The translations under genes were made by a program, and so were the position numbers. A DNA stretch of 64,000 nucleotides, from assembly GCA_006503475.1 (NCBI GenBank), contig RSEH01000077.1:62001-126000 (forward strand). Reading direction: 5' to 3'. Position 1 is the stretch's first letter; each line of letters opens with the position of its first letter. Positions 6,486 through 43,315 of the stretch are shown here, piece after piece. Source of the stretch: Stentor roeselii (taxonomy: Eukaryota; Ciliophora; Heterotrichea; Heterotrichida; Stentoridae). The notes below the pieces were generated by a model. The model saw only the letters and a program-made list of their open reading frames with translations, was not told the DNA's origin and ran no database searches.

Positions 6486-6569
6486 TGTATTATTAAAACT
6501 TTGATATCAAGAAAATTTCTTTTATTCTTAATATTTTCTATAAATAGGTAAATTGATTGTTTATAAATT
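6486..6569. promoter_or_regulatory. Divergent promoter region, Kelch-like gene / DUF726 gene 1
   Basis: 84 bp between two outward-facing start codons. It is AT-rich, with no motif I can name; the right end is TTATAAATTATGG. Confidence 0.4.
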
Positions 6570-8414
6570 ATGGAAGAAGTTATTAATTATCTAGAAACAC
6601 TTCAATTTCCTGTCAGTTTAAATAAAGCTTATTCGAAACTAGTGGAACTTGATTGCTCAGATAATGATTTACTTTTACATCTCATTATGAAAAACTTTAA
6701 GGCGATTATCAAGATTTTCTCGAAAAAGTTGAAAAAAGAGTTGAGAAATATGATAAAGAAAGAAACTAATGAAATTATTGAAGTCACAGGGATTCCTAAC
6801 ATTCCAGCGAACACTCTTGAGAAAATTGAGAATTTCTGTTCTGAAGACTATCTAGGTTATTCAGAATTTTCTAAAATAACTAAAAACAATGTGATTTCTG
6901 AGCTGGAAGATAAATTTTACAAGTATTATTTACAAGAACTAATTAAAAGAAAAGACTTGAATGTGACCATCAGAATTGAAGACTATCTGGAAACCATGAG
7001 AAAAACAAAGATTTTTGGATTAAGTGATTTCCTTGAAATTGAGAAGGTGAAAGACTTAAGCTATGAAAAAATTATGAAGGAACTTGATATAAAAATAATA
7101 AATATCGAGAAAATTATTCCTCAAATAAAAAAAGAACTGGGTTTCAAAGGATGCTTAAAAATCGAAGAATTTTGCAAAGGTTTTATCGAGAAAATAGTTT
7201 TAGATTTCAAGGAATTCAACGGTTACAACAGAACCTTAAGAGAAACTATCATAAATGCTTTTGGACTAATTCAAATCGTATCTTTTGAAATCAATTCAAG
7301 TACTTACAAACCCGTAAATGAATCTCTATTAAATAAAGCATTCGGAATCAACGTAGAAGCCATCGACATAACTGAAACCATGTGGAAATCAATGAACATA
7401 GACACAAAGTTAGAAATCTACACCGCTTGTTATTTACTACTATCTGAAGACATCTACCTTCTAAGAAACATCAACACATCCAGATTCACCGAATCACTAA
7501 ACAACTGCTTCAGTCCAGTAGCACAAGAAATTCTTTACTTCATCTCAAAGATTTATCCATTGTTCGAGGAAAACAGACCTGAAAGCAAGAAACTGTTACA
7601 CAACTCAAGACTCTTCATGAACCTCATCGACCAGGTCGTTTCTTCAGTGTTGCCCTCATCGCGAAACTACTTCAAAACGATTTACTTCAACCGAAACAGC
7701 CGAATCATGAGTTTCGTTGACTCTTCTCAGTTCTCTGCTGACTCCTGCAGCCTTTCCTTGCTAAACGAGGTGAAATCCAAGCATATCATTATCTGTGTCT
7801 CAGGATATATGAGTGAATCAGACGACCACCTCTTCGCTTGGGAAAAAATCATAAAATTATTCCCTCATTCAACGATTTACAGTTTTTTATGGCAATCTTC
7901 AAGTTACTTTAGATTTTTCAAGAATTTTTTTAACATCATTGGAGGAATCAAGGAGATTTACAGTGATTTTCATCAATGTAGTGAACGTGCAATGCAGTCA
8001 GGGATTATTTTAGCGGAAATGATTCAGTCGAACTTTTTGAATAAGGGATTTTGTGTATCGCTTTATGGGTTTTCATTGGGAACTCTTGTTTTAACTGCTT
8101 GCATGGCTGAGCTTAGGAATTATCAGATGTTTTCTTTGCATCAAGTTATTTATTTTGGATCTGCTACTTCTGTTGAAGAGGCTAGTGAAATGAGTAACTT
8201 TAAAAGACATGTTGTTTTTGCGAGACTTATCAATGTTTATAGTAGGCAGGATTATGCTTTGAGATATATTTATAAGATTGCAAGAGACTCCAGGGCTTGT
8301 GGCGAAAGTCAAGTGGAAGGAATGGAAAATATTGATGCGAGTCATGTTGTTAATGGGCATTTACTTTATAGGAAGAATTTTTGCAGGATTTTTAAAATGA
8401 TTTGGGGGAAATAA
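6570..8414 (+). CDS. DUF726 / TMCO4-type alpha/beta hydrolase, paralogue 1
   Basis: 614 aa. The C-terminal 230 residues match the DUF726 alpha/beta-hydrolase family: a strand IIICVSGYM, the nucleophile elbow GFSLG with Ser502, a later NVYSRQD carrying the likely acidic residue, and NGHLLY with the likely catalytic His. The N-terminal 380 residues are Lys/Ile-rich, helical and not recognised; they replace the membrane helices of animal TMCO4. A tandem paralogue follows about 100 bp downstream. DUF726 proteins are linked to membrane or Golgi functions in yeast, but the substrate is unknown. Catalytic residues look intact. Confidence 0.82.
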   Translation: MEEVINYLETLQFPVSLNKAYSKLVELDCSDNDLLLHLIMKNFKAIIKIFSKKLKKELRNMIKKETNEIIEVTGIPNIPANTLEKIENFCSEDYLGYSEFSKITKNNVISELEDKFYKYYLQELIKRKDLNVTIRIEDYLETMRKTKIFGLSDFLEIEKVKDLSYEKIMKELDIKIINIEKIIPQIKKELGFKGCLKIEEFCKGFIEKIVLDFKEFNGYNRTLRETIINAFGLIQIVSFEINSSTYKPVNESLLNKAFGINVEAIDITETMWKSMNIDTKLEIYTACYLLLSEDIYLLRNINTSRFTESLNNCFSPVAQEILYFISKIYPLFEENRPESKKLLHNSRLFMNLIDQVVSSVLPSSRNYFKTIYFNRNSRIMSFVDSSQFSADSCSLSLLNEVKSKHIIICVSGYMSESDDHLFAWEKIIKLFPHSTIYSFLWQSSSYFRFFKNFFNIIGGIKEIYSDFHQCSERAMQSGIILAEMIQSNFLNKGFCVSLYGFSLGTLVLTACMAELRNYQMFSLHQVIYFGSATSVEEASEMSNFKRHVVFARLINVYSRQDYALRYIYKIARDSRACGESQVEGMENIDASHVVNGHLLYRKNFCRIFKMIWGK

Positions 8415-8516: not shown

Positions 8517-10292
8517 ATGGAAAGAGGATATGATTATATCACTAATGCAAATTATCCCATCGAGATGAATGTTATTACTAGAAAACTTTGTGAGTTTTGT
8601 CAAGGAAATGACTTTAGTGAACTTATTGTTGAAGCTATTATGAATAATTCTGGAAAAATAAAATCAGATTTTATGCCAAGGATTAAGAAACAAGGAGAAA
8701 ACCTTGCTGATAGCAAAAAAGCTGATTATTTAGCTGAGTTTGGAATTCCTGATTTTGATGAGTCTTTAAAACGAGATATTTTGAATTTGTGTAGCAGAAT
8801 CTTTAATGGCTATAATTTTGACCAGACAGAGTTTTTTATTAATTTGGAAAAGCATTTCTACTCATCTTATACAAAAAGATTGCTACAGAAAACTCACTTT
8901 TACAGTGAACAAATTAATCATATACTAAATAGCATGTCCTTTCAAAATTCATTAAGATTTCAAAATCATTTATACAGTTATGAGCATGATTTCGTAATTG
9001 AAACACGAGACATAAGCCAAAATATCGGAGTTGAAATAAACCATATAGAAAGAATTTACCCTAAATTACAGAGGATCTTAGATAAAAAATGTTATGAAAA
9101 TTTCATGCAAGTTTTTAAAGATTATATTCACTCAAGACTTCATCAGTTATCTAAAATAAATATTGAGACTGAAGAATTCGACCTCTTAAAGCTAGCTTGC
9201 CAAATACTTCATTATTATGAAAATGGATCATCAGAATGCTTTAAATTTTTACAGAATTTGGTAGAATTGTGTTTTAGAAAGTTCTTAGACCCCAAAGAAT
9301 CTAAAATCTTTTGGGGTTACATCAATGTTAAATTAAGAATAGATATATATATTTACATGTATCTGATAGCTTCAAAGAAACTTCCAGCTTTGATGAATAT
9401 TCCTAAAGAATATTATTCTTGGTTTATTGATTGGCAGTTTCAAGATATTTCAAGAACTAGAGAAATCCTTAGAAAAATCTCTAAAAGGTACAAAATTTTT
9501 ATTCCAAGTCCAGACAATACCCACTTTTCTTATGTGAAAAATCCTTTTGAGTGTTTTAAAATAATAGAAACAAATACTAATCAGTATTTCTTAGATCGTT
9601 CAATGATGCCAAACCCTGAGATACACTTGAATACCAAAAAATTCAAAAAGTTAACAAGTAATAATTCAGATCATATCGTTATTCTTGTTTCTGGATATCT
9701 AAGCCAGTTCGACAACCACAAGACAGAATGGAAAAATCTAATCCGATTATACCCAAACGACACTTTTTACTCCTACACTTGGAAATCTTCAACCCTAAAA
9801 AATTTAATCCTTTCTGTGTTTAAACTATCCTTCGGCAGAAGACACTTCAACGAATTTTACTTAAAAGCAGAAGAGGCAGGTATAAAACTTTCTCAATTTC
9901 TAACTGATTCCGAGATGTTTAAAGGAAAAAGTATTTCACTTGTGGGCTTTTCACTGGGAACTGTAGTGATCAACAGTTGTTTGCAAAAGCTTAGTACTGA
10001 AAGAATGAATTCCATTCATGATTGCATCCTCATGGGATCTGCTTTAGATATAAGGGCAGCACAATATAATCAATATCTAAGAGATTATATTGTAACTGGA
10101 AAGTTTTATAATATTTTCAGTACCAAGGACTTTATATTGAATGAGATCTTCTGTCTTACTGCTCATTCCTCACCATTTGGAATTACCCGAGTCCCTGGAA
10201 TGAAGAACAAAGATATGAGTGATATCATTTTTGGCCATAAAAAATATAGAGAAAAATTGGGAAAGATCTTCAAAAGAATCAAGAATTTTTAG
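8517..10292 (+). CDS. DUF726 / TMCO4-type alpha/beta hydrolase, paralogue 2
   Basis: 591 aa, starting in CTATAAATGG. It has the same plan as the gene before it: an unrecognised helical N-terminal half and a C-terminal hydrolase with ILVSGYL, the nucleophile elbow GFSLG with Ser479, NIFSTKD and FGHKKY. The two proteins align through the C-terminal domain and more weakly through the N-terminal half, so they are an old tandem duplication, not a recent one. All likely catalytic residues are present in both. Head-to-tail with 102 bp between the two genes. Confidence 0.82.
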   Translation: MERGYDYITNANYPIEMNVITRKLCEFCQGNDFSELIVEAIMNNSGKIKSDFMPRIKKQGENLADSKKADYLAEFGIPDFDESLKRDILNLCSRIFNGYNFDQTEFFINLEKHFYSSYTKRLLQKTHFYSEQINHILNSMSFQNSLRFQNHLYSYEHDFVIETRDISQNIGVEINHIERIYPKLQRILDKKCYENFMQVFKDYIHSRLHQLSKINIETEEFDLLKLACQILHYYENGSSECFKFLQNLVELCFRKFLDPKESKIFWGYINVKLRIDIYIYMYLIASKKLPALMNIPKEYYSWFIDWQFQDISRTREILRKISKRYKIFIPSPDNTHFSYVKNPFECFKIIETNTNQYFLDRSMMPNPEIHLNTKKFKKLTSNNSDHIVILVSGYLSQFDNHKTEWKNLIRLYPNDTFYSYTWKSSTLKNLILSVFKLSFGRRHFNEFYLKAEEAGIKLSQFLTDSEMFKGKSISLVGFSLGTVVINSCLQKLSTERMNSIHDCILMGSALDIRAAQYNQYLRDYIVTGKFYNIFSTKDFILNEIFCLTAHSSPFGITRVPGMKNKDMSDIIFGHKKYREKLGKIFKRIKNF

Positions 10293-15290: not shown

Positions 15291-18200
15291 ATGGAAGACG
15301 AGCTTCGCAAAATGAGTGCTCTTCAGCGAGTCGAGTACGATTTCCAAGTTCTTTACAACCAGCAGGTCGAAATGCAGAAAATAACAAAGCAAGAAGACGT
15401 ATGCCTGATCCAGATGCACAGCAGGTACCAAGAAAAGCCTTATTCCGCGACATCTCTAGGTTTTCTGACAGTAACAAACCCGTTTCGCAAGTTCATCATC
15501 GGAATAGCTTTAAACGGGAAGTTCGACACGTTTATCCTCGCAGCGATTATGTTTAACTGTCTTCTTCTGGCAATTGACGACTACACTTCAGGTGCATGGA
15601 AGGCGCAAGTTGACATGGTTCTTACAATTGTCTTCACCGGTGAATGTGTTTTAAAAATCCTCGCCATGGGCTTCTTATTCGGGAAAAATTCTTATTTGAC
15701 TGACCCTTGGAACATGCTTGACTTCTTCGTCGTCACCACCGGGCTGATGGGGATGTTCACAGGAGGAGGGAACATGTCAGTGCTGCGGACCATCCGAATC
15801 TTAAGACCACTGAGAACAATCAACAGCATTCCAGAAATGAAAGTCTTGACAGTCTCCATCCTCAATTCAATTCCAATGCTTGTCGACATCTTCGTCTTGA
15901 TCCTCATGTTTATTTTGATCTTCGCACTTGTAGGAGCCCAGCTCTATGGAGGGAACTTTTCTATTGTTTGCTTTAATATGGATGGAACTACTGATTATCA
16001 GATATGCGCGTTTAAGCCAGGGTGTAAGGAGTATATGGTTAATTGTGGAAATACTGGATGTGCTGAAAATCAGTATTGCTGGGACTCTGGGGAAAACCCG
16101 AATCAAGGACTTGTCAATTTTGATAATCTGGCTTTTGGGTTTTTGACTATTTTTACTTCTATGACCATGTCTGGGTGGAGTGATGTCATGAGGATGGGCC
16201 GAGCGGCTTTAAATGCTAAACTGCTTAATGATATCTTTTTTTACTTTTTGATTGTGATTGGGTCTTTTTTCTTGATGCAGCTTACGGTCGCTGCTATTTT
16301 TGTGAAGTTCATGGAAAGCTCGAAGGAACAGAAAAATAGGATCAAGTTGATTGAAGTTAGTAAGCCGCCTATTGATTTCACACCTCAGAAACCTGATGCT
16401 GATAAAGAGTCGAAGATTATGAAGTGGTATCGGTTTAGGATGGACTTTTATCATAAAATTCATACTGATTGGTTTTCTGGGGTTACTATGACTATTATTA
16501 TTATTAACACCCTGGTCATGGGAAGTGAGTACTATGGAATGACTGAGGCGCATATTTATGTGTCTGATAAATTGAATATTATGCTAAATATACTCTTTGC
16601 TATTGAAATGATCATGAAACTTATTGGTCTTGGGTTTAAAGGGTATACTTATGAAATTATGAATATATTTGATGGAGTCATCGTCATCATGGGAATCGTT
16701 GAACTATGTCTTAACGGTGTGAAAGGGCTTCTAGTCCTTCGAGCCTTCCGTATGCTGCGAATCTTTAAACTGGCACGCAAATGGAAAACCTTAAAAACAA
16801 TGTTAATCAAGCTGATCAACAGTATGAAAGCAATAAGTTACCTTGCGCTTTTAATGTTGATAATAATGTTCATCTACACCTTACTAGGAAAGCAGTTATT
16901 CCAATTTCAAATGGACGACGGCGAAGGTGAAAATCCTCGAGCGAATTTCGACAACCTATTCTGGGCATTCATCACAGTTTTCACAATTCTGACACAAGAG
17001 AACTGGAACGGAATCATGGCGAACGCAGTCGGACCGACTAACATTTTATACGCCTTGTTCTTTGTCAGTTTCATCGTCATTGGAACTTGTATCTTGCTCA
17101 ACCTTTTCCTTGCTATTCTCATCGAACAGTTCGAAAACTATGAACCTGGAAGCGACGACGAAGATGATTTGGAAGCTGCTAGACTTGCTGAAGAAGAAGC
17201 TGAAAGACAGAGAAGAAGAAGAAGACGAAGGAAAAATGCTGTCAATAGTGGGGAAGAGGATGATGAGGAAGAGTCAGATGTTGTTGAAGCTATACCGTTG
17301 TATGGAAAGTCGATGTTTTTGTTTTCGAAGAAGAATAAATTTAGAGCTGGATTGAGGGATATGCTTACTCATCCTTATTTTGACTCGACGATTTACACTC
17401 TTATATCGTTTTCATGTATTTTATTGGCACTTGACGAGCCCAAGCAGCTGCCTTATACGACACGTTTCTTGGACTTGGCTAATAATGTGGTCTTGGGGCT
17501 GTTCACCTTAGAAATGCTGATAAAAATAGTAGTCTTCGGTTTCGCAGGCAGTAAAAACGCTTATATAAAAAACAGCTGGAACCTTCTCGACATATTCATA
17601 ATATTCATGTCCTACTTCGACATGTTACTAGCAGCAGTCCTAGGAGGTGTAATAAACCTAAGTTTCTTAAGAGTCCTTCGAGCCCTTCGAGCCTTGAGAC
17701 CTCTTCGAATGGTCTCCCAAGACGAAAAGATGAAAAAAGTGATAACATCAGTGATCAGGACGATTCCAGAGCTAATAAACGTTATGATGATCACTTTATT
17801 ATTCTACATCATTTTCGGTATAATCGGTGTGATATTCTTCAAAGGAGGGATGTACTACTGCACCGACCCTAACATTTCCTTACAAGCCGAATGCAAAGGA
17901 TCCTTTCAAACCAGCGACGGTGAAATGCTTGTACGCGACTGGCGCACTTTGAACTTCCATTTCGACCACATCTTCAACGCGATTCTGACTTTATTCTGCG
18001 TCTCCGCAGGCGGAGGGTGGTCGGACTACATGTACGCCCAGGTCGACATCGTCGGTCCAGGACTTGCAATGGAAAGAGACTTCAACCAAGTCGCTTCTCT
18101 TTACTACGTCGGGTTCATCTTTCTAGTCAACTTCTTCATCATGAACCTTTACTTGGGAGCCATTGTGACTAACTTCAACGCGATTCAAAAGGAACTCGAC

Positions 18201-19544
18201 GGGTCGCTTTTCTTGACGAATAATCAAAAAAACTGGGTGTTAGCGCAAAAACTCATGATTCGGTGCTTTCCACGTATTAAGTTCTTGAAACCTCCGAATA
18301 AGTTTCAAGGGTATTTTTATGATTTTATCATGAATTATAAGTTTGATGTACTTATACAAACTTGTATTGTTTTAAACGTGATTTTCATGGGACTTATCAG
18401 CTTTCCCGCAGACCCGGATCTTAACTATTTCTTGGAACTTGCGAATTTCATCTTCGTTGTCATCTTCGCGATTGAAATGGCTTTGAAAATGATAGGCTTG
18501 GGACCGACTCTTTACTTTGCTGACGCTTGGAATAAATTTGACTTCTTCGTGACAATGCTGAGCATTTTAACCCTCTTGCCCATCGCGGCTCTTGAAAGTG
18601 CAACAGTTTTCAGGTCCTTTCGAATTGCGAGACTTTTCAGATTAGTGAAGATTTACAAAGGCTTTCAAAAGGTTTTAAACACTGCAGTCTTGGCAGCTCC
18701 AGCTTTGTTGAACATTGGAACTTTGCTGGCTTTGCTTTGGTTTGTTTATGGCGTTGCAGGAATGTATTTGTTTGGAAAGTTGGACTATTCAACAGCAGAC
18801 GCTTTAGACGATAATACGAATTTTAGTACTTTTTATAATAGCTTCGCACTGGTTTTCCAGTGCATCACTGGAGAGAACTTTGATGTGATCATGTGGGACT
18901 GCATGGGGATTCCGGATTGCACAGGGGGAAGTGATTCATGTGGAAGTCCGATTTTTGCAATAGTTTTCTTTGTTTCTTATGTGATTTTCGGAATCAATTT
19001 CTTTTTGAATATGTTTATCGCTGTTATTTTAGAGAATTTCACTGAAGAAGAAATCGACCTCACATTGGCAGGACTCAATCAGAAGGATTTAAGGAAGTTT
19101 GAAAAAGGATGGGCCATGTACTCCCCCCTTGGCGACTACCACCTGCCCATTGAAAAGTTGCCCATGCTTCTCTTGCAGGTCGACCTTCCTCTCGGCTTCG
19201 CTGGGCAGGGACTCAACAGTCGCCAGATTCTTCAGATCATTAAAGCTCTTGGAATTAAAGACTTCGGAGAAAAGGTCCACTTTGCTGATGTTCTTTGGTG
19301 TCTTGCTACGTCCGTCGCTGGCACTAGTCTTGAAGAGGCTAAATCTTGTGAAGCTGTCAAAAGTATCACTAAAGCTGTTCCTATGAAATTTCCTATCTTT
19401 GGGAAAGCTGATAAGCGTCAGGCGTTTTATAAGGAAGAAATCTCAGCTGCTAAGATTTTAGCTGCGAAAATCATTTGGGCTGCTTGGAAACAGTATAAGA
19501 TTGATAAGGCTTCTGGGAAGAAAAAGATATCTTTCCCGTTTTAG
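15291..19544 (+). CDS. Four-domain voltage-gated cation channel alpha subunit with S/E/G/E pore
   Basis: 1417 aa, start AAATAAATGG, no intron needed. Four repeats of six membrane segments are visible, each with an Arg-rich S4 (for example LRTIRILRPLR and LRALRALRPLR). The pore loops read TMSGW, TQENW, AGGGW and TGENF; aligned to CaV/NaV channels the selectivity ring is S-E-G-E, not EEEE or DEKA. The II-III linker has an acidic stretch followed by a run of arginines. A C-terminal AAKIIWAAWKQYK looks like a calmodulin-binding IQ motif. At 1417 aa it is compact. Likely carries Ca2+ or Na+ at the plasma membrane or cilia; the ion cannot be fixed from sequence. Confidence 0.92.
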   Translation: MEDELRKMSALQRVEYDFQVLYNQQVEMQKITKQEDVCLIQMHSRYQEKPYSATSLGFLTVTNPFRKFIIGIALNGKFDTFILAAIMFNCLLLAIDDYTSGAWKAQVDMVLTIVFTGECVLKILAMGFLFGKNSYLTDPWNMLDFFVVTTGLMGMFTGGGNMSVLRTIRILRPLRTINSIPEMKVLTVSILNSIPMLVDIFVLILMFILIFALVGAQLYGGNFSIVCFNMDGTTDYQICAFKPGCKEYMVNCGNTGCAENQYCWDSGENPNQGLVNFDNLAFGFLTIFTSMTMSGWSDVMRMGRAALNAKLLNDIFFYFLIVIGSFFLMQLTVAAIFVKFMESSKEQKNRIKLIEVSKPPIDFTPQKPDADKESKIMKWYRFRMDFYHKIHTDWFSGVTMTIIIINTLVMGSEYYGMTEAHIYVSDKLNIMLNILFAIEMIMKLIGLGFKGYTYEIMNIFDGVIVIMGIVELCLNGVKGLLVLRAFRMLRIFKLARKWKTLKTMLIKLINSMKAISYLALLMLIIMFIYTLLGKQLFQFQMDDGEGENPRANFDNLFWAFITVFTILTQENWNGIMANAVGPTNILYALFFVSFIVIGTCILLNLFLAILIEQFENYEPGSDDEDDLEAARLAEEEAERQRRRRRRRKNAVNSGEEDDEEESDVVEAIPLYGKSMFLFSKKNKFRAGLRDMLTHPYFDSTIYTLISFSCILLALDEPKQLPYTTRFLDLANNVVLGLFTLEMLIKIVVFGFAGSKNAYIKNSWNLLDIFIIFMSYFDMLLAAVLGGVINLSFLRVLRALRALRPLRMVSQDEKMKKVITSVIRTIPELINVMMITLLFYIIFGIIGVIFFKGGMYYCTDPNISLQAECKGSFQTSDGEMLVRDWRTLNFHFDHIFNAILTLFCVSAGGGWSDYMYAQVDIVGPGLAMERDFNQVASLYYVGFIFLVNFFIMNLYLGAIVTNFNAIQKELDGSLFLTNNQKNWVLAQKLMIRCFPRIKFLKPPNKFQGYFYDFIMNYKFDVLIQTCIVLNVIFMGLISFPADPDLNYFLELANFIFVVIFAIEMALKMIGLGPTLYFADAWNKFDFFVTMLSILTLLPIAALESATVFRSFRIARLFRLVKIYKGFQKVLNTAVLAAPALLNIGTLLALLWFVYGVAGMYLFGKLDYSTADALDDNTNFSTFYNSFALVFQCITGENFDVIMWDCMGIPDCTGGSDSCGSPIFAIVFFVSYVIFGINFFLNMFIAVILENFTEEEIDLTLAGLNQKDLRKFEKGWAMYSPLGDYHLPIEKLPMLLLQVDLPLGFAGQGLNSRQILQIIKALGIKDFGEKVHFADVLWCLATSVAGTSLEEAKSCEAVKSITKAVPMKFPIFGKADKRQAFYKEEISAAKILAAKIIWAAWKQYKIDKASGKKKISFPF

Positions 19545-21513: not shown

Positions 21514-22151
21514 TTACTGCAAGTTTAAAAATTGAAGAGTCTCTGGATCGGAGACCAGTTCAAAGCTGAGCTTGAGTGATCTAGCAGCTAAAAAAAGACA
21601 ATTCTCTGCTATATTGTGATGTGATTTATAGAGTGATGCCTTTGTTTTAAAGAAATCAGTACCGAACCCATATGCAACTCTTAGAAAATTATTTTTGGCC
21701 GTAGCAGGAAGACTAAGATTATCTACAAACTTCTTTATTCGACTGTACGGAAGCTTAACCGACACATTAAATCCAATTTCTTCAAGAATAAGAAACTCAT
21801 GAAAAATAACACTGTCTTTGAGACTTGACAATGTGGAAAGAGAAGCAGGAGGGACTTGAAGATTAGGAGTTTTCTGCACCTTTTTCTTCATTTTTACTTG
21901 GTATAATTTTTCACAAAGTGATTTTATATGTCTTGGCTGTTCCACAACTTTACCTGCGAGAAAGACACAAGCGGCTGATAAGTGGAGGGTCTTGAACTTA
22001 CTTGAGCAGAAAGTTGTATACTAAGAATATTTATTACTTTGTGGAAGTATGCGTTGGCTGTGGCCATGCATTCCTTATTAACTCGCAGTTGCATAGACAG
22101 TTCTTGGATTATCCAAAGACCTTTGATTCTGTCTTGCCTTTGACCTTCCAT
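21514..22151 (-). CDS. Transcription-type cyclin (cyclin T/K/L-like), frame interrupted by an 11-nt segment
   Basis: Partner of CDK9/12-class kinases controlling RNA polymerase II. The first cyclin fold reads IIQELSMQLRV ... ATANAYFHKV, then LSAACVFLAGKVVEQPRHIKSL, a clear match to the cyclin T/K signature (xxPACLFLAxKVEEQPR). A second cyclin repeat follows (HEFLILEEIGFNV ... SHHNIAENCLFLAARSL). The two halves lie in different frames; removing exactly 11 nt at 21991-22001 (gtaagttcaag) joins them with correct spacing to the family. About 200 aa in all, short for the class because it lacks a long C-terminal tail. A HEXIM-like gene lies 1.5 kb away. Confidence 0.82.
21991..22001 (-). other. 11-nt GTAAG...AG segment interrupting the cyclin frame
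   Basis: On the minus strand gtaagttcaag lies between codon 50 (Gln) and ACC (Thr). It begins GTAAG and ends AG, and its removal restores the cyclin frame exactly. It is 4 nt shorter than every other intron here. It could be a record-short intron, a 15-nt intron that lost 4 bases in the assembly, or a true frameshift. Confidence 0.5.
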
Positions 22152-23056: not shown

Positions 23057-23503
23057 CTATAACATTGAATGTCTCTTACTCAGAGATGCACGGAAACGAG
23101 GAGAATATCCTTCAGTGTCGAAAGTGTTTGAAGTCGAATCTCGGTGATTTGGAGATACGTGGATTGTAATGTCGCCTAAGATGTTAATGCTCTGGGAGGT
23201 ACTTCGGATGTAGGATATCAGGTAACTTCCGCTTTCGTTTGGAAATGTCACTCGAGAGACACCTGACATGTTGCCTGGCTCGCGCATTATGAAGATTCTG
23301 AATAAGAAGTACCTGTTGTTTGTGTTCAAGTGAGGAGGTTTGTTTAGACATAGGTAGTCCGTGTCAAGAATCATTGTTCGGTCTACCTGGAGAAATACGT
23401 CCATGTAAGCTTTACCGTCTTTGTACTCTACCTTGGAATGGGAAAAAGAAACTGATGCACTGGGTCTGATACAACAAAATAAACCAGTTATTCCACAGTT
23501 CAT
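23057..23503 (-). CDS. Protein of unknown function, about 148 aa
   Basis: Minus-strand ORF from ATG at 23503, beginning MNCGITGLFCC, a cysteine-bearing short N-terminus that could be lipid-modified (speculative). The body looks beta-rich: hydrophobic/polar alternation in YLCLNKPP ... RYFLFRIFIM and SYLISYIRSTSQSINILGDITIHV, suggesting a small beta-sandwich, perhaps C2- or PITH-like, but no family is recognised. A Ser/Arg tail ends it. It converges on the LYR gene with 18 bp between stops. It is divergent from the HEXIM-like gene. Confidence 0.6.
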   Translation of the reverse strand: MNCGITGLFCCIRPSASVSFSHSKVEYKDGKAYMDVFLQVDRTMILDTDYLCLNKPPHLNTNNRYFLFRIFIMREPGNMSGVSRVTFPNESGSYLISYIRSTSQSINILGDITIHVSPNHRDSTSNTFDTEGYSPRFRASLSKRHSML

Positions 23504-23660
23504 TAAATTTAAATCATTCGAAGAGAGATCATTAAAATTGCTGCTGGAAGAATGGGTTAGAGTAAAGAATAATAATCTGCTGGTTTTAAGCCAAATGGCC
23601 TGTGGTGAAAGATCGTAAGTATGGTTGATAAAAGAAAAAACAGATTGAAATTAGGACTAG

Positions 23661-23918
23661 ATGGTAAAATGCCAAAAGACAGATAAGGGCTACTTGAACA
23701 AGAGACATCGCAAGCTAGCTTTCCATGATATGAAGGACGACTTCAAATTAAAACTTAGACGTCTCAAGGAACTTCACTTTAGAAAGAAATGCAAGAAACC
23801 AAGAGCTCCTCATAATACAACTCAGTATCTTATGGAACTCCACGGAATGACTACTTTTGACTCAGATGAGTTGTTAGGTTCTGTCTTATGGATAAAACTC
23901 AAAAATTCGAAGGGTTAA
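23661..23918 (+). CDS. Small HEXIM-like protein (P-TEFb inhibitor motif)
   Basis: 85 aa from ATG at 23661. The key block is APHNTTQYLMELHG at about residues 49-62, matching the HEXIM signature PYNTTQFLM(D) at nearly every position. It is preceded by a basic arginine/lysine region (NKRHRKL ... LRRLKELHFRKKCKKPR) like the RNA-binding basic motif of HEXIM, and followed by acidic residues. In animals HEXIM, bound to 7SK RNA, holds CDK9-cyclin T inactive through this motif. Here the coiled-coil C-terminal region of animal HEXIM is missing, and it is far shorter than the 359 aa of human HEXIM1. A transcription-type cyclin gene lies close by. An in-frame stop just before the ATG supports the start, but an upstream exon cannot be excluded. 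Confidence 0.62.
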   Translation: MVKCQKTDKGYLNKRHRKLAFHDMKDDFKLKLRRLKELHFRKKCKKPRAPHNTTQYLMELHGMTTFDSDELLGSVLWIKLKNSKG

Positions 23919-24034
23919 AGTAAAGAGAATCATTCGGACTTCGTCGTTCGTCGCACCTCGGCTTATGTTACGTTTTAGAATATTAGGTAAGATGATGATG
24001 AAGGGTGCCCTAGAGTCTATTGTTGTTTATTTTA

Positions 24035-24540
24035 CACTTCTTAGTGATTTAAATCATTCTAAGTCAGATCATAAAAAATTTTGATGGAAGAATGGGTTAG
24101 ATAAGACTAAGGAATAATAATCACTTGATTTAGATTTAAGTTGAATAATCGGTGAAAGAATGTAAGTTAGGTTGATAAATGTAAAAATAGATTGAAATTT
24201 AGAATAGATGGTAAAATGACAAAAGATAGATAAGGGCTAGTTGAACAAGAGTCATCGGTAACTTGGGTTAATAATATGAGGGATGACTTTTAATTGAAAC
24301 TTAGACGGTTTAAGGAACTTCACTTTAGAAAAAATGCCAGAAATAAAGAGCTGCTCATGATAAGGCTTAGAATTTTATGGAACTCTAAGGAATTAATATT
24401 TTGATTAGATTGGTTGATAGGTTCTGTCTTAAGGATAAAACTTTGAAGGGTTTAAGTAAAAAGACTTATAGAGATACGTCATTGATCACATCTCAATTCA
24501 TATAAAGTTTTAGAATATAAGGCTAGATGAATAATATTAT
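24035..24540 (+). pseudogene. Decayed tandem copy of the HEXIM-like gene and its upstream region
   Basis: This stretch aligns base for base with 23495-23995 at a constant offset of 540 bp at its start (both have TGGAAGAATGGGTTAG, at 23545 and 24085). The copy of the coding region carries several stops and small indels: the counterpart of the ATG is followed within a few codons by TGA, and the NTTQ motif is destroyed. Homology runs past the stop codon into the 3' flank (TTTTAGAATAT). It is a dead tandem duplicate, diverged by roughly a quarter of its bases by eye. Confidence 0.8.
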
Positions 24541-25701: not shown

Positions 25702-28700
25702 ATGTTCCGTCTCAGTTTAAGAAGAGGTCTAAAGATACACCAAATCTACTCATCAGAAGACCATTCTCGAGGCAACCAAAGACTCCAAAAAAACGTAACC
25801 CTTATCTAGTTAGACCTGATAAACAAAAAGCGCGGAACAGTAGGAGAAGTATCCTTAAACAACCCAATCTTCGGCAACGTGTTGAGCAGTTCAATGATAA
25901 ACTCTCTTCACCGAACTTTAATGGCGATGGAGCTAGACAAAGACGTGCGCATGGTATTGATGAAGTCTTCGAAAGACTTCTGCAAAGGAGCTGACTACCT
26001 TTGTAAGACTTATTCAGACCTTGCCCACACAGATTCAGAAAACGTCGAAAAATACTTTCGCGACTTATACGCATTGGTCTGGGACGTCAGCAAGATGGAG
26101 ACTCCTCTCGTCCCCCTTCTCACAGGCAAGCTCTACGGCGCAGGCGCCTCCCTCGCAGGGCTGAGTCACTTCGGCATCGCGAGTGAATACGCGACGGCCT
26201 GCTTCCCAGAGACCAAATTCGGCTTCATCCCGACAGGCGGCTCTTCTTATCACCTCAGTCGACTTCCGTGTGAACTCGGCTTGTTCCTTGCGCTGACTGG
26301 AACGAAACTCACAGGGACTGACTTGAGAAACTTGAACCTTTCACATTCAACTGCAGATATCACTGACTTTCTCGAAAACTTCTTGATGTATGAAGTGAAT
26401 AACTTGAATGGACCTTTCCCGACGCATGTCTTGCATGGAAATGTCTGGCAAAGTCAAAATCTTAGCTTGGAAAGTTATAAAAGGTATGAAAACAAAAGAG
26501 ATAGCTTGGAAATCATGAACAGGACTAACATGACACCTTTTTACAGAAACTTTCCGGAAAATATTAGAATGACTGTAGCTGATGTGCTTTACAGCAATAA
26601 GGTCAGGAATGAAGCGCTGAATGCACCTGGACTGTCTTACACTGGCTTCAGTGGGCAGCCTGTTCAGAACTTTTTATTTGATTTTGAAAGAGCTGTGATT
26701 GAAGCGATTCAAAAGGCTCCTGAAAAGCCTCTTTCCATTCATCATCATCTTCCCAGCATCTACAGGTGCTTCTCCGGCAGGACTTTAGATGAGGTCTTCG
26801 AGCGACTTGTCTACGAGAAGGCCAACGGTCAGAAGATCTGGGCAGAAGAAGTCCTCAGCTGCTTGTCACTCAAGTCGCCGATTGCCTTGGAGATGACTTT
26901 CCACCTGATGAAGCGTGCTAATGATGCAGAATGGAGTGAATGTCTTCAAAACGAGTTCAAAGCTGCACTCAATTTATCAAAGCATCCAGATTTTATCAAT
27001 GGCGCTAAAAGTGTCCTGTCAAGAAAAAAGACTGACCCTGTTTGGACCAGCAAGTTTCCAATAAGCCGCGACCAGGTCCTTGAACTCAGCAATTCAGATA
27101 AAAAACTCGACATCGACTCAAAACCTGAACAGCTACTGCCCGTCAAAGAGTACTTCCGTGATTACCCTCATAACCCCCGCGCATGGATCAATGAAATCTC
27201 ACCTTCAAGCAGCTTTCATCGAAGGGACTATGACCTTGAAGTTCAGTACTTTTTAAATGGCCTGGGTTTCGATATTCGAGACTTTAACATGGAAATTCCT
27301 GTTGTTCGTTCTAAGATCTTCCTTGCGGAAAAGACGAAAAAAAACATTGAAAAAGAAGAAAATCGCATGAGTCGACTTTCACAGGACCAGGAAAGTCTCA
27401 GGATGTTTGTGAAAAGTCGTGTTGAGGCTATTGAAAACTTCACATCTTCTCCTAAGTTAAAAGAAAAGGTAAAAAACGCGCTTCAAGCGCGTTTCACTAA
27501 AGCTTTCAAAGAACGAATACAGACTGTGAAGGAAAAATCAACTGAAGCCCATAAGATCAAGAAAAGAGGATTTTGGAGAGAAATGAAAGATTACATCGAA
27601 AATCAAGTCCTGCAAAAGCCTTTTTTGTCTCAACAGAACTTGCATCAAATGCTCAGGATTAACGAAATGCAGAATGTGCCGATTACCTTCCCCAAGTCCT
27701 ACGAAGAGAGTTACCTGCCCGAGTTGATGGAAAAGGAGTACCCGGCAGGTGAGGAAAACGGCACTTTTTACACTTCTCAGGCTTTAGATGTAAAAGACGT
27801 CGAAATTTACAGACTTGCAGGGTTGAGTCGGTATTTTGATAAAAGCTTTTTAGATCAAAAAAATATTAAGGATAAAATCAGTGAGTTCTACGCAATGATC
27901 AAGTTAAACCAAGTTGATGAACTTTTGACGGAAACATCGAATGGAGAATACAACCAAAATATTTTTCTACCTAAAGACTCTTTTGAGATTATTAAAAACT
28001 CTATTCGAAAACATCTTGATAATGGGAAAAATTCATTGGACTGGCTACGTTCAATCGTTCCTGAGGAGTCACAAGAGTCTAAAGAAAAAAGTTTAGAAAA
28101 ATCAGAAAACCCAGGAATATCAGAAAACCCAGGAATATCAGAAAACCCAGGAATATCAGAAAAACTAGGAAAATCAGAAAATTTAGAAAAATCAAAAATA
28201 GAAAAAAATGAAAACCGAAACCAAGTCAAGCCAGTTCTTTTCAACTCTAAAGGCGAAATCACTGATCTTCCAGAAGTCAGCAACTCCGAGCAAGGCCAGT
28301 TCAGACAGGTCGAGATTCCTAGTAACTACTTCAGTCCACAGATTGAAGAATTACTTCTGAGCGACACTGAAACTCTGTCAAGCTTAGCAGAAGACGTGTA
28401 TGTTAAAACAGGGTGCAAAGACTTAAGAGAAGGTATCGAAAAACTCAGAAAAAACACCTTCGAATACGACCCTGAAGCCATGAAACAACGAAGAAGACAA
28501 ACCCTGACTGAAAAGTACAAATTAGAAGACAAGATGTACCTCGACGAAGAACAGTCAATTCTTCAAGACCTCTTCACTGAGCAGTTAAAAGCGCCAAACG
28601 ATTCAGAAATTTCCAACAAAATCTTAAAAAAACTTGAATATCAAAATTCAAAAGTTCTTCTTTCAAAACTTCAAGAATTCAAAGAACTAAAACAAGAAAA

Positions 28701-29646
28701 GTTACAAAATATAGTACCTCAAGATAATGACCTCAGTGATTTCTTCGAAGACATCGAAACAAATAAAGGGCTTCCTCCTGGCTCCGGAATCATTCCGAAC
28801 CTGGGAACTCAACTGAAATTCGAAAACGATTACTTGAAACTTATATTCGGCGAGAAGACTTACATCCCTCTTGAATACGACAACACTGCTGAGGACTCTC
28901 TTATGGTTCAAGAGACTTACAAAAACTGTGACTTCAAAGAAACTCCCTCGGAATGGGTTGAAAGGGTCTTTGAAAAGTGCATCGACGCCGTGTTTGAAGC
29001 GAGGAAAGTCGAAGAAATGCAGATGACCACCGCTGAACTCCTCGCTTATGACCTGGACCTATCGAAAGAGCTGTCTTCTGCAGGAATTCGCAAGTTGATG
29101 ATGAACTACCTGCACCAAGAGCTCGGCACTGTTCAACTCTCTCATGAATCTGAACTCACTGAAGAAAGAGAAGAAACCAACTTGATCACAAGCGCTGTTA
29201 AAGGAAGTGACGGAGATTTCCAGAAGTGGCTTAATGACAACCCTCCATTAAGAGATACAATTGAAGCATATCAGTTCAGCAGTAAATTGAGAAACTTGAA
29301 AAAATCACGAAAACAAAAAGTTCGAGAAATTAATCCTCATCAAGGAGACCCATTAATTCATGTTTTGATTCATGAACAGAAGCATGGACTACTTGATCAT
29401 AAAGATAAGAAAGTCGTCGATTTCCTTAAGAAATGGAAGCCAAGATACATTCCAACTAGACTAGAAATACAGACATCAGCAAAGGATAAGAAAGCGGAAA
29501 TGAGATTACTTCAACGTGATCTAGAAACCACTGCAAAGGTCTTGAAAAGTGTGGAAAAGTTACTGAAAATGAAGAAATATCGAGATATGACTGAAGATGT
29601 AAACGAATTTCAGAAGGTTTTAGAGAGTAACAAAGATATTTATTAG
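25702..29646 (+). CDS. Enoyl-CoA hydratase/HIBCH-like protein with a long C-terminal extension; mitochondrial, possible mS47-type ribosomal protein
   Basis: ATG at 25702 (CTAATAAATG) opens a 31-codon Arg-rich, Ser-rich leader (MFRLSLRRG) typical of mitochondrial import. A 15-nt intron at 25795-25809 then joins to LDLINKKRGTVGEVSLNNP. Total 1309 aa. Residues about 35-370 are the crotonase fold: GKLYGAGASLAG oxyanion-hole loop and FPETKFGFIPTGGSSYHLSRLP, which keeps the Glu of the HIBCH PET motif. The remaining 930 residues are charged, helical and unrecognised, with an 18-nt in-frame repeat. In ciliate mitoribosomes the subunit mS47 is a HIBCH homologue, so an enlarged mS47 is my favoured reading; a catabolic hydrolase is the alternative. 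Confidence 0.8.
25795..25809 (+). other. 15-nt spliceosomal intron in the crotonase-like gene
   Basis: gtaacccttatctag: GTAA start, A at position 10, in-frame TAG at the end. Removal links the import leader to the crotonase domain. Confidence 0.9.
28102..28191 (+). repeat. 18-nt in-frame minisatellite inside the crotonase-like gene
   Basis: Three exact units of 18 nt (tcagaaaacccaggaata, encoding SENPGI) at 28102, 28120 and 28138, then two diverged units (SEKLGK, SENLEK) to 28191. The length keeps the reading frame, so the repeat could vary in copy number without breaking the protein. Confidence 0.9.
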
Positions 29647-38149: not shown

Positions 38150-41100
38150 TTAAGAGTCATCAGCTGTTATTAATATTTTACTTGAACGAGCCTTTTTTAT
38201 TCTCTGCGCACGGTGGAACTTTTTCCACCCATCGAAGAAAATCTTCAGGTAATAAAAACTCGTTAAAAGCTTTCCAGGGTCGTGATCATGGTAATCAAGA
38301 TGCTCGTTTTTTCTCTTTTTGATGTCATGTCGGACTTCTTTCAACTTCTGGTAAATTATTGCCTCTTGTCTCTCTAAAATCCTTCTCACAAATTCCTCAC
38401 TTTTGCCGTTCATCATCCGCGCGTATTTTCTTCGGATGAAAGCGTAGAGCAGGTCGTGGTAGTAGATGAAACCTTGAGGGTCTACGTAGATCTTCATTGA
38501 AAAAACTAACTTTTTTAAACGCTTTGTGTCGATCAGGCCTTGAACTCCGATTTCACTGCCGAGGTCTTTGAAGATCAGGTCGAGATACTCGTATTTCAGT
38601 TTGTGACCTTTGAACTCTTTGCTGTATTTTACCCAAACGTTTTTAAATTGTTTTACGAATGTGTTGAAAATATGAACGGCACTCATTGGGTTTTCGACGT
38701 ATTCTTGGTAGTTTTGGATTATCACTGATACGAAAAATTCTAAGAGGATGAAATTGATAATCGCTAGAAAACTAGTAAAATAAATGGCGACAGCTTTACT
38801 GTCATAATACTCAATACACTCCTTCATGATATACGGGTAGTCTTCACCAGTTGAAACCCTCCAAAGCATCAACATCGCTTTATGAAAATTCAAAAAATTC
38901 CAATCATCATTCAAGTAATTCCCCGAAACCTGCCAAAAAAGATAAACTCCTAAAATCGAGTACATCATAAAAATAATGATCATCAAGCACATCACATTCA
39001 AAGCAGCAGGCATAGAAAAAATAACAACATGAATCAAATCCTGAAGATACTTAAGTCCTTGAAACAATTTAACAATTCTAGAAATTCTAAGAACTCTTAA
39101 ACTTCTCAACAATTGAGGACCAAACCTCAAGATTTTCAATGTTTTTCCAATGTATTCTTGAGTGATGATGAAAGTGACAGAGCTGAGAACGACTAAAAAG
39201 TCGAAGCGATTCCAGTTACTTTGAAAGTAGCTGCGAGGGCCAAGTCCAATGATTTTCATGAGAGCTTCTAAGATAAACAAGTAAGTGCAAACGTCGTTGA
39301 TGACCATCAGGGAAAAGTTGTAATCGTCTGAAGCGCCTTCGAACATCATCGCCATTTGTAGGGTGTTGAGGATGATGACCATTAACATGAAGATTTTGAA
39401 GGAGTTGTTGGAAATCACTTGATATATGAAACGTTGAATCGCTGGACCACTTTCAGATTTACTTAATTTTGCTGGTTTTGATTGAATCACTAGTTTTTGG
39501 ACTTCTATCCAGTCTAGCTGCTTGCGAGTTAGTAGAACTGAGGTTAATGAACTTTCTTCTTGCTTTGCAGCTTCGAATTTGGTGTAGACCACTATGGTGA
39601 ATAAGTTGATTAAGAAGAAATCGCCAATGAACACGTAAAAAATCACGTAATATGCAGCTCCTGGGTTGTAGTTTAAAACAGGAGTCTTCCCTGAAGCATA
39701 CGCATCAACCACGTTAAACATCCTCTCAGGCCAAGTCTCCTGACTAGAAATGATAAAAAGTGTAAGAGAGGCTTCAAAGATATTGTCATAATTATAAATA
39801 AAGTTCTTCCATTCATACCCCGAACTCTCACATTCTCCTTGCGTACTAATCTCACTATTCTCACAAGAATAAAGCTTCCCATTAAACAAAGAAACCCCTA
39901 AAATCGCGAAGATTAGCCAAAATAGTGAAATCACGGCAATAACATTCAAACTTGAGAGGATGGACCCGAAAAGTGCTTTTATCACGATTTTCATTGAACT
40001 GTTGTAACGAATCAACTTTAAAGGGCGAAGGATTCGAAGACTTCGAAGCACTTTAAATGCTGACAACTCGACTTCAGTCATAGAAATATCAATAAGTGAG
40101 AGAATCAGGATAATCAAGTCAAGTTTATTCCAATGATCACGCAAGTAACTCCCTGGCTCTGAGATGAAGCCTAAAGCGAGGGCTTTCATTAAGAACTCAA
40201 AAAGAAAAAGTAGAGTAAAAGTTATGTCAACGATTTTACTTGCTTGTGCCTCGTGACTTGAATTCGAAACATTCAAAGTGTAGGTCTCCCAGATCAAAGA
40301 TATCAAGTTTAAAACTGTCAGGATTAAAATCAAGATCTCAAATTTCGTGTTTAACACGATATTCAACAAAACCTTACGAAACCTGTTATTCGCTGAAAAA
40401 AAGCAGAAACTAGTCTGTGAAACATTCTCAAAACTCATGATTTTCGCTTCAGTAAAAGTCATTCTTTTAATCTGGTCTAAACTATACTCCTGATTTTCAC
40501 TATCCACACTATTTTCCACAAATTTCTCAAAGTAAAGCTGTTTAATTTTTAACTCTTTTGTTTTTTTCCTTAGAAGTGACTTATAAATCACATTTTTACT
40601 GCAATTCGAGGTTTCATCATCGAGATCAAAATTGTAATCAAGTTCAAACCCTCCAAGAAGAATTGCAAGAAAAAGATTCAAAATGATAAAATTTCCAATA
40701 ATAATCCAAACAACTAAAAAAATCGAGCTCCAATGTCCCGCTTCAGACCTCATCGCATCTCTCAGCACTCCATCCCAATTTTCATTTGAAAGGACCTGAA
40801 AAATAGTAACAAAAGCCCAATTAAACGAGTCGAAATTATTTCTCGGTCTTCCTTCCAAGAAGTTGAATCGATTTCCATAGATTTCCATTGCAAGAAGAGT
40901 GAAGATCAGGTGAATAAGAAGTAGTAAAAGTAACAGGTACATGAACTTCGACATTGAATTTGAAATGATTGAAATCAGCTGGACTATCGAGTCTAAATAT
41001 CTGAAAATTCTGAAGACTCGAATCACTCGAAATAAACGTAAAACTCTTAAAGCTCGAAAAGCGTTGAAACCTGTTGATTGGGAGAAGAAAAAATCAAGCA

Positions 41101-43315
41101 TGCTTAGAATGATGATGAAAAATTCTACAATGTTTAAGTGGTCTCGCAGGTATCGTCGAAGTCCTTGTCCTGATAGTTTTAAAAGGAACTCGAAAATGAA
41201 GAACCATGTGCAAAGGGAGTTTATTAGGAATAGCGCCTGGTCACCTTCTTTTGAAATCCCGTAGTGATGAGAGGATAGAGCTAAGATGTTCACGATTACT
41301 AAGGAACTGGAAAGGATGTTGAAGTATTTGCTTTGGATCAGTTTAAAGCAAATTAATGAAAATTCTTCATATTTTGAAAGTTTGTAACTTTGGACTTTGA
41401 GAAGAAGTGATTTGAACTTTAAAGAATTCTCGTTTGTTGGATTCACGTCGCTTCCTGACCAGTCCTCTAAATTTAAATTTTCTTGAAAGCAGCTTCGAAC
41501 TGAAAACATCATCTGGAAAAAAACAGCTTTTCTTGTATTTCTAATCTGTAAGAAGTGAAAAAGTGCGAAAATGTTACTTTTTTCATATTTTTCCTGAAGT
41601 TTTCGATATCCAAGTTCAGGACTTTCACAAGTTTCCAAATTCCGAAAAGTCTTGATTTCCAAGTCATCTTCAGAAGAAGAACTAAGTGAAATCAAGTCAT
41701 TAATATAAAGTTTTTCTACATTCTTATTTCCAGCTTTGACAGTAAAAACTCTTGCATACTGAAAAGATCTGAGAATTTCATGTCGATACCTCTCAGAGTC
41801 CCTCCAAGCAAGAGTAGGTGCAAAGGCCATGGCAATCATTTCATTCTTCGAGGCTTCATTATCTCCAGTTTTCAAGAACTCAAGAGGTCCATCAGCTTGT
41901 TCATGATTCACCTCCACAAGTCTCGACGAGTTCAAACTATCCGCTCTACTTTCCAGTAAAATATCATAAGGCACAATAGTCTTCCTAATCGAATTTTTCT
42001 TTTTTTTCTTTAAAATTTCTCCTAAAGTCAGTTCTTTGTTCTGCATTTTTGACACCTCATGATAAGCAGCTGTGAAAGAAGTCGTCAAAACTGCAACTGT
42101 CAAGTTAAGGATGAGTAAACTTCCGAAAATCACAACCAAAACATAAAAAATCACTGAAAACTCTGAAAAAGCTGAAGAAGTTAAGCTAAAAATCTTCGTC
42201 CAGCCTTCAAGTGTGATGATTTGAAAGACATTCAACCATGAGTAAAAAAACGAGTCAAAACTAACAGTTCCAAAAAAAGGGTTGTTGATGGTTTCTGCAC
42301 ATTTAAAGCCGATCGGGCATTCTTTAAACCCGCAAACGTCTCCAAGTAGTCCAAAGTCAAGTGAAAGGCAACGATTTCGAAAAGCGCCTATCCAAAGTTG
42401 TAATCCGATTATTGCGAATATGGAGATTGTGATGAAGAGAATGATCATCGAGTTGATGAGTGGCTTGAGTGACAGGTAAAGGGCTAGAATTAACACCCTA
42501 ACACCCTGGACTGAAGACACCCCTCGTAGCGGGCGAAGGACTCGCAAGGTCCTTAAGGACTTGAGGTTCATTGACGAGTTTCCTGAAATACTCAGCCAGG
42601 AGGTCACAACGATGGTCAAGTCGATGAAGTTCCACCAGTCCTTCAAGTAAGCCTCTTCTTCAAAGAACAACCCATTCGCCATCACCTTCAAAACACATTC
42701 AAAGGTATAAACCGCAATGAACAGCAAGTCCAAGTCCTTCGAAGCACTTGAAGAAGGGTAGTCAGGACTTTCCACAGCCAAAAGGATAACATTCGTGATG
42801 ATTGTCAGAAGAATAAAGACTTCGAACACCCTGCTGAACACGATGTATCCTGATAGTTCTCGAAAGGCTAATTTAATCCGTTTCAGTGATTTCAGCAATT
42901 CAGAGAAACTTGTATTTTCTGAGGACATGTCGATTTTCTCGTAGGCAAGGTTCTTTATTGGAACTATCAAGTCTTTCAGCTCTTCAGAGAGGTTCAGGAT
43001 TTCTTGCTCCAGGTGCTTGTTTGATGATATCAGCTTGTGTTGCATCGCTAAACGACGCTCTAGACCTACCAGGTTGGAAAGATAGTTTTCTTGTAAGAAG
43101 GAAGTTTCGCTGTTGCACTCGTCTTCTGAAAGGTTTAAAAGACACCCGCTTTCTTGGGTTTCTTTTTGGATTAAGGACTTTCTTGCTCTTTGGCTACGAC
43201 GATTTGGACCTTGTTCTGATATGTTTCGCTTTGCAAAGAGGCTCAGTGGCTCTGGAAGTTGAATTTCTATTGACGTGTTCTTGTTGCTTTTTAGGAAAAG
43301 GACTGAGTTACTCAT
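38150..43315 (-). CDS. Four-domain voltage-gated calcium channel alpha subunit (EEEE pore)
   Basis: 1721 aa. Four repeats with S4 segments such as LRTLRVLRPLRG and LRVLRLFRVIRVFRIFR. The pore loops read TLEGW, SNENW, SQETW and STGEDY, giving a glutamate in each repeat (EEEE), the mark of Ca2+-selective channels. The C-terminus has a cytosolic domain with a degenerate EF-hand-like segment (FSMKIYVDPQGFIYYHDLL) and a charged helix. In ciliates, such channels lie in the ciliary membrane and drive reversal of the beat. The N-terminal 100 residues are soluble and carry a coiled-coil-like stretch. No intron needed. Confidence 0.93.
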   Translation of the reverse strand: MSNSVLFLKSNKNTSIEIQLPEPLSLFAKRNISEQGPNRRSQRARKSLIQKETQESGCLLNLSEDECNSETSFLQENYLSNLVGLERRLAMQHKLISSNKHLEQEILNLSEELKDLIVPIKNLAYEKIDMSSENTSFSELLKSLKRIKLAFRELSGYIVFSRVFEVFILLTIITNVILLAVESPDYPSSSASKDLDLLFIAVYTFECVLKVMANGLFFEEEAYLKDWWNFIDLTIVVTSWLSISGNSSMNLKSLRTLRVLRPLRGVSSVQGVRVLILALYLSLKPLINSMIILFITISIFAIIGLQLWIGAFRNRCLSLDFGLLGDVCGFKECPIGFKCAETINNPFFGTVSFDSFFYSWLNVFQIITLEGWTKIFSLTSSAFSEFSVIFYVLVVIFGSLLILNLTVAVLTTSFTAAYHEVSKMQNKELTLGEILKKKKKNSIRKTIVPYDILLESRADSLNSSRLVEVNHEQADGPLEFLKTGDNEASKNEMIAMAFAPTLAWRDSERYRHEILRSFQYARVFTVKAGNKNVEKLYINDLISLSSSSEDDLEIKTFRNLETCESPELGYRKLQEKYEKSNIFALFHFLQIRNTRKAVFFQMMFSVRSCFQENLNLEDWSGSDVNPTNENSLKFKSLLLKVQSYKLSKYEEFSLICFKLIQSKYFNILSSSLVIVNILALSSHHYGISKEGDQALFLINSLCTWFFIFEFLLKLSGQGLRRYLRDHLNIVEFFIIILSMLDFFFSQSTGFNAFRALRVLRLFRVIRVFRIFRYLDSIVQLISIISNSMSKFMYLLLLLLLIHLIFTLLAMEIYGNRFNFLEGRPRNNFDSFNWAFVTIFQVLSNENWDGVLRDAMRSEAGHWSSIFLVVWIIIGNFIILNLFLAILLGGFELDYNFDLDDETSNCSKNVIYKSLLRKKTKELKIKQLYFEKFVENSVDSENQEYSLDQIKRMTFTEAKIMSFENVSQTSFCFFSANNRFRKVLLNIVLNTKFEILILILTVLNLISLIWETYTLNVSNSSHEAQASKIVDITFTLLFLFEFLMKALALGFISEPGSYLRDHWNKLDLIILILSLIDISMTEVELSAFKVLRSLRILRPLKLIRYNSSMKIVIKALFGSILSSLNVIAVISLFWLIFAILGVSLFNGKLYSCENSEISTQGECESSGYEWKNFIYNYDNIFEASLTLFIISSQETWPERMFNVVDAYASGKTPVLNYNPGAAYYVIFYVFIGDFFLINLFTIVVYTKFEAAKQEESSLTSVLLTRKQLDWIEVQKLVIQSKPAKLSKSESGPAIQRFIYQVISNNSFKIFMLMVIILNTLQMAMMFEGASDDYNFSLMVINDVCTYLFILEALMKIIGLGPRSYFQSNWNRFDFLVVLSSVTFIITQEYIGKTLKILRFGPQLLRSLRVLRISRIVKLFQGLKYLQDLIHVVIFSMPAALNVMCLMIIIFMMYSILGVYLFWQVSGNYLNDDWNFLNFHKAMLMLWRVSTGEDYPYIMKECIEYYDSKAVAIYFTSFLAIINFILLEFFVSVIIQNYQEYVENPMSAVHIFNTFVKQFKNVWVKYSKEFKGHKLKYEYLDLIFKDLGSEIGVQGLIDTKRLKKLVFSMKIYVDPQGFIYYHDLLYAFIRRKYARMMNGKSEEFVRRILERQEAIIYQKLKEVRHDIKKRKNEHLDYHDHDPGKLLTSFYYLKIFFDGWKKFHRAQRIKKARSSKILITADDS

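Follow-up and report, generated by a model that had tools for sequence, protein, structure and literature searches.

In animals, release of paused RNA polymerase II depends on HEXIM keeping CDK9 inactive. A small open reading frame of the ciliate Stentor roeselii, described in an initial annotation as a HEXIM-like gene, raises the questions of whether the frame is a gene, how far its likeness to HEXIM extends, and what its product might do. The frame lies in what is here called the window, the whole stretch of 64,000 nucleotides that was analysed; the source assembly comprises 44.4 Mb in 522 contigs.

A family of small charged proteins

The ORF was found where it had been annotated, and the features that belong to it and to an adjoining duplicate are as follows.

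23661-23918, plus strand: HEXIM-like small gene, an ORF of 85 aa with an ATG start
23661-23804, plus strand: basic N-terminal stretch of 48 residues, net charge +14; a helix is predicted at residues 22-44
23805-23843, plus strand: HEXIM-type core APHNTTQYLMELH, residues 49-61 of the window protein
23865-23882, plus strand: second conserved block DELLGS, of which E, L, G and S are invariant in five proteins
24208-24443, plus strand: decayed tandem copy (pseudogene) with stops and single-base gaps, its motif lost
23488-23995 (left) and 24027-24530 (right), plus strand: tandem duplication units, identical at 397 of 492 aligned bases

A genome-wide search with the window protein as query returned four intact paralogues, each on a separate contig by which it is labelled (C215, E 1.4e-11; C99, 2.0e-4; C521, 7.1e-4; C55, 0.0093), and also recovered the decayed neighbouring copy (E 5.4e-7). 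With the C55 member as query, C521 (3.9e-15), C99 (5.6e-11), the window protein (0.0127) and C215 (0.0263) were retrieved, and nothing new. The family thus numbers at least five intact genes, in two sequence groups, one of the window protein and C215 and the other of C99, C521 and C55. Since conservation among the paralogues extends outside the motif, the ORF is very probably a genuine gene, and since five such genes exist, the HEXIM-like observation holds and is stronger than could be known from the window alone.

The five proteins are 85 (window), 90, 83, 77 and 78 residues long and share one architecture, in which 47 or 48 mostly basic residues precede APHNT[T/S]Q, an invariant histidine follows six residues on, and then comes a block of the form EL[L/F]GS. 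Invariant columns, in the numbering of the window protein, are M1, K36, P47, A49, P50, H51, N52, T53, Q55, H61, E70, L71, G73 and S74. The basic region annotated upstream of the motif is borne out by net charges before the motif of +14 (the window copy, over its 48 residues), +16, +13, +9 and +7. The acidic character annotated downstream is weak in the window copy (net -1 over 37 residues) and stronger in the four paralogues (-7, -3, -5 and -5), with tails of 30 to 42 residues across the family. The KKKHRRRPSKKKRH pattern of the HEXIM basic region is absent from these proteins. The C-termini come 4 to 16 residues past the GS of EL[L/F]GS. In the 900 nt downstream of the window gene the longest frame on the same strand has 54 aa; the frames found over the same distance at the paralogues are of oxysterol-binding (C215), VPS13 (C99) and U-box/TPR (C55) type, and at C521 there is a 146-aa frame without a Pfam match. 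Because none of these is a HEXIM-type continuation, the cyclin-T-binding coiled coil of HEXIM is absent as far as is visible.

The decayed copy carries five in-frame stops across two matching frames (three plus two) and several single-base gaps. It differs from the intact copy at 17 of 83, 8 of 81 and 15 of 80 first, second and third codon positions, a mild deficit at second positions; upstream there are 32 differences in 169 sites and downstream 23 in 79. That one copy has stayed intact next to a ruined one is as expected of a real gene under selection. The commonest changes from the intact to the decayed copy are C to T (22) and G to A (14), which suggests an AT-ward drift.

Two alternative readings of the start of the gene were rejected. 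A 15-nt intron (GTAAAATGCCAAAAG) at the start of the ORF would suit the tiny introns inferred here, and the frame is preserved with or without it; the MxKCQxT start that it encodes is kept in C215, and as this start is common to C215 and the window protein the first codons are more likely coding. Tiny introns are known from some ciliates. An upstream in-frame ORF (23409-23618), considered as a first exon, is without a Pfam match and is read as intergenic or opposite-strand sequence, because it overlaps the start region of a divergent ORF on the minus strand. This divergent ORF (23057-23503, first Met near 23503) stands head to head with the HEXIM-like gene and likewise has no Pfam match.

Extent of the likeness to HEXIM

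The motif in the window protein had been annotated as matching PYNTTQFLM at eight of nine positions; it is present, with identity at seven of nine (Y to H and F to Y). The best six-frame score of the 13-residue HEXIM core in the 64-kb window is 52, compared with a mean of 26.1 (sd 3.1, maximum 38) in 200 first-order Markov windows of equal length, and the paralogues score 47, 52, 45 and 50. Thus, the 13-residue core clearly exceeds chance for 64 kb, under a null that covers this motif and not other recognisable known motifs. The shorter PHNT[TS]Q pattern, sought as DNA throughout the genome, was set aside as uninformative because its reversed control is equally frequent (six matches each); five of its six matches are family members, and the sixth (C295) is spurious, lying in a frame of 29 residues.

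All five proteins keep P, N, T and Q of the P-x-N-T-x-Q core in the motif that binds CDK9. The position of Tyr203 is His in every member, and that of Phe208 is Y, Y, F, E and D. The Tyr and Phe residues of PYNTTQFLM are described, in general terms, as mattering (PMC11482795).

The Pfam family PF15313 (HEXIM) is the top match in four of the five proteins (window, 20.3 bits, E 7e-4; C99, 24.6 bits, 3.1e-5; C215, 17.3 bits, 0.0058; C55, 15.4 bits, 0.022), and C521 has no match to it. A profile search of this kind had been proposed in the initial annotation; every score lies under the curated 29-bit cut-off, and the match disappears when the ten motif residues are masked (in both proteins tested, C99 and the window protein). 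When instead the first 46 residues are masked, the window protein retains 16.7 of its 20.3 bits. From this masking it follows that the similarity to HEXIM lies mostly in the peptide and its neighbours, about 20 residues. As a positive control, a segment of human HEXIM1 scores 207 bits against PF15313 and its 27-residue PYNT peptide 54.3 bits; replacing the tyrosine of this peptide by histidine lowers the score to 51.4, a cost of 2.9 bits, so the histidine by itself matters little to the model.

Two further comparisons were made in the opposite directions. With the window protein left out, the HEXIM model run against the genome picked out the C99 paralogue (E 0.005) and no other place. On the HEXIM1 segment, the profile built from the five proteins reaches 20.4 bits, and at most 9.0 on shuffles of it among the 1972 listed of 2000; the alignment pairs PkAPHNTtQelmdsH with PVAPYNTTQFLMDDH, and 11 of 14 residues agree or nearly so. 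No counterpart of EL[L/F]GS was seen in this HEXIM1 segment. Against solved structures the family profile has no match, and the matches of the HEXIM1 segment in the PDB are to the coiled coil only (2gd7, 3s9g).

The order of parts in the ciliate proteins resembles that of the centre of HEXIM, within about 80 residues. In HEXIM1, NMR shows a helix (171-194) that follows the basic region and precedes the PYNT motif (at 202); CDK9 is bound by this peptide, which the basic and acidic regions are described as masking until RNA binds (PMC12901311). AlphaFold2, given the five-sequence alignment, places a helix at residues 22-44 of the window protein (mean pLDDT 65.0) and at residues 20-40 of C99 (66.9), both at low confidence, and the two models are not independent because both use one alignment. 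The family resembles HEXIM1 and HEXIM2 in a core of the APxNTTQ-x-[LI]-M-x-x-H type and, judged by charge and structure prediction, in the basic stretch upstream, in the helix between the two (predicted here), and in the mildly acidic sequence that follows. It differs from them in the histidine at the tyrosine of PYNT, in a Phe208 position that is not kept in two of five members, in the extra EL[L/F]GS block, in Pfam scores under the cut-off, and in being without both the long N-terminal region and the cyclin-T-binding coiled coil that is described for HEXIM (PMC10083321). The claim of a HEXIM-like gene thus stands in part: the resemblance at the level of sequence is genuine, with PF15313 as top match, whereas the name HEXIM does not stand for these proteins, because they lack, as far as is visible, the coiled coil, which is a defining part, and stay under the profile cut-off.

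Patchy HEXIM-like sequences have been reported outside Holozoa in a study that favours animals and their closest unicellular relatives as the group in which HEXIM arose (PMC11482795). Neither ciliates nor Tetrahymena is mentioned in its main text, the species being given in supplements, where a ciliate may already be listed. In the open-licence literature no description of a ciliate HEXIM-like protein was found, nor one linking HEXIM with Stentor. No relatives were confirmed among 1 + 8 pattern stretches in viral contigs or 18 + 131 in prokaryote genome contigs, results that say little because these collections hold few eukaryotes.

The neighbouring cyclin and candidate partners

The initial annotation had set the ORF beside a cyclin of T/K type some 1.5 kb away and had joined the two in an elongation-control module, perhaps with a 7SK-like RNA. 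The cyclin is present at about that distance, its gene starting at 22151 on the minus strand.

21514-22151, minus strand: transcription-type cyclin gene; one intron of 17 nt is inferred (22037-22021), and the spliced product has 206 aa

The inferred intron (GTAATAAATATTCTTAG) has GT...AG ends, and the spliced product matches Pfam Cyclin_N at 29.7 bits (cut-off 23). Its best solved relatives are cyclin L2 (1e-15) and cyclin L1 (2.2e-14), and cyclin K (5.4e-11) and cyclin T1 (2.1e-7) fit less well. A conserved linkage with the cyclin was rejected, as none was found around the four other paralogues in seven stretches (best E 1.8), of which that of C99, at the start of its contig, covers just 3.5 kb upstream. 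For this reason the adjacency is most simply taken as accidental, and the cyclin is probably unrelated to the HEXIM-like finding. With a neighbour closest to cyclin L here and no cyclin found in the stretches around the other paralogues, the proposed module found no support.

Nor did the 7SK-like RNA: among the 19 first-look candidates scored, of 520, the 7SK model gave no match with an E value of 10 or less. This is a weak test of absence, because the scored share is small and because 3 of the 14 control genomes gave a signal under the cut-off. According to a review, ciliates lack 7SK RNA (PMC10083321).

Other components with which a 7SK RNP/P-TEFb module could be compared are encoded in the genome. 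The best match to a CDK9 query is on C518 (46% identity, 5.9e-83), a kinase of CDK9/12/13 type (CDK13, 9.5e-90; CDK12, 4.2e-88; CDK9, 1e-83). There are three matches to La-type genes, two of them over the cut-off, and one gene of Bin3/MePCE type (E 3.5e-31). The La-type and Bin3-type genes say little, because proteins of these types also act with telomerase and U6 (PMC8917221, PMC10484740, PMC10083321). The likeness to the module thus consists of the kinase, La-type and Bin3-type genes, and the difference of the missing 7SK match, in a limited search, and of an adjacent cyclin nearest to cyclin L. An open frame of 21,561 residues was discarded as an artefact of N runs.

Possible roles, and other features of the window

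The leading reading, which stands level with convergence on some other partner and is itself tentative, somewhat short of an even chance, is that the family acts in the manner of HEXIM's kinase-facing centre. Its PHNTxQ peptide would dock at the catalytic face of a kinase of CDK9/CDK12 type, and would lower the activity of that kinase or steer its substrates; the basic half may bind RNA or the acidic tails of the family itself, and in this way control exposure of the peptide; and EL[L/F]GS could provide a second contact in place of the cyclin-binding coiled coil. CDK9/12-type kinases would be the likeliest targets, with these small charged proteins acting as inhibitors or docking factors. The invariant P-x-A-P-H-N-T-x-Q, H and E-L-x-G-S columns, the first rank of HEXIM among Pfam matches in four members together with the return of C99 alone from the genome, the profile score on HEXIM1 well above its shuffles, the basic-then-acidic layout of all five proteins with a predicted helix before the motif as in HEXIM1, and the kinase on C518 argue for this reading. 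Against it stand the sub-threshold Pfam scores, with no match in C521 and an E value of just 0.022 in C55, a similarity confined nearly all to about 20 residues, as would fit chance convergence of a short motif, the change from tyrosine to histidine and the variable Phe208 position, the low confidence of both structure models, and the absence of the coiled coil and, within the limited search, of 7SK.

Several of the same observations would be explained, in our estimate with the same probability, by a lineage-specific family of small basic proteins whose binding peptide is unrelated to HEXIM and has converged on it over some 13 residues. The true partner would then be something else, perhaps bound by a joint PHNTxQ...H...EL[L/F]GS element: the best-conserved unit runs past HEXIM's motif to EL[L/F]GS, the likeness to HEXIM does not reach beyond the motif and is lost when this is masked, the tyrosine is replaced in every member and there is no coiled coil. 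Convergence fits less well with the 11 of 14 residues that agree or nearly agree with PVAPYNTTQFLMDDH, with a core score far outside those of the 200 random windows, and with a layout of basic half, helix, motif and acidic tail that also fits HEXIM.

Descent from an ancient HEXIM of the common ancestor of animals and ciliates, in reduced form and with the coiled coil and 7SK lost or never had, is considered quite improbable. It would account for the motif, for the basic half and the acidic tail on either side of it and for the linker helix, all as in HEXIM, and it would be in keeping with the patchy sequences published for other eukaryotes (PMC11482795) and with the presence of Bin3/MePCE-type and La-type genes. 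Against descent, these genes have the other duties named above, the Pfam scores lie under the threshold, the searched collections, which hold few eukaryotes, yielded no related sequence, and the study that reports the patchy sequences itself prefers an origin in animals and their nearest unicellular relatives. The last alternative, a chance ORF holding a chance motif with no gene at 23661-23918, is very hard to credit, for although the ORF is short and without transcript evidence and the bare PHNT[TS]Q pattern is as frequent as its reversed control, four intact paralogues of similar length on four other contigs are conserved inside and outside the motif, and the intact copy adjoins a duplicate decayed by stops and frameshifts.

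To return to the kinase-facing reading, its furthest form would be a minimal HEXIM-type kinase brake far outside animals, made by a duplicated family of about 80 residues that keeps the CDK-docking peptide, an RNA-binding basic half and an acidic half, without coiled coil and without 7SK. We regard this as unlikely; were it true, animals would have elaborated HEXIM from an inhibitor of CDK9/12-type kinases that was older and self-contained. The family hints that such a brake could be older or simpler than has been supposed. A family of ciliate proteins that shares this docking peptide would imply either that the inhibitory principle originated far earlier or that the peptide solution arose twice. 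Either way, these proteins offer naturally short test pieces of 80 residues for how such a peptide recognises a CDK and for why animals added the tyrosine, the coiled coil and 7SK.

Several other frames of the window were noted. Two adjoining genes (6567-8414 and 8517-10292) have a similar layout; the first matches DUF726 (1.3e-26), and the second, judged by eye, is its apparent paralogue. Two long frames (15291-19544, 1417 aa; 38150-43318, 1722 aa), named from their sequence, encode putative four-domain voltage-gated cation channels, and each is linked by blastp to fragments of the other via a third gene on C55. A frame of 1278 residues (25810-29646) opens with an ECH_2 domain of 3-hydroxyisobutyryl-CoA hydrolase type (E 5.5e-55), the enzyme family to which the mitoribosomal protein mS47 belongs, and continues in a long extension with an ENPGIS repeat.
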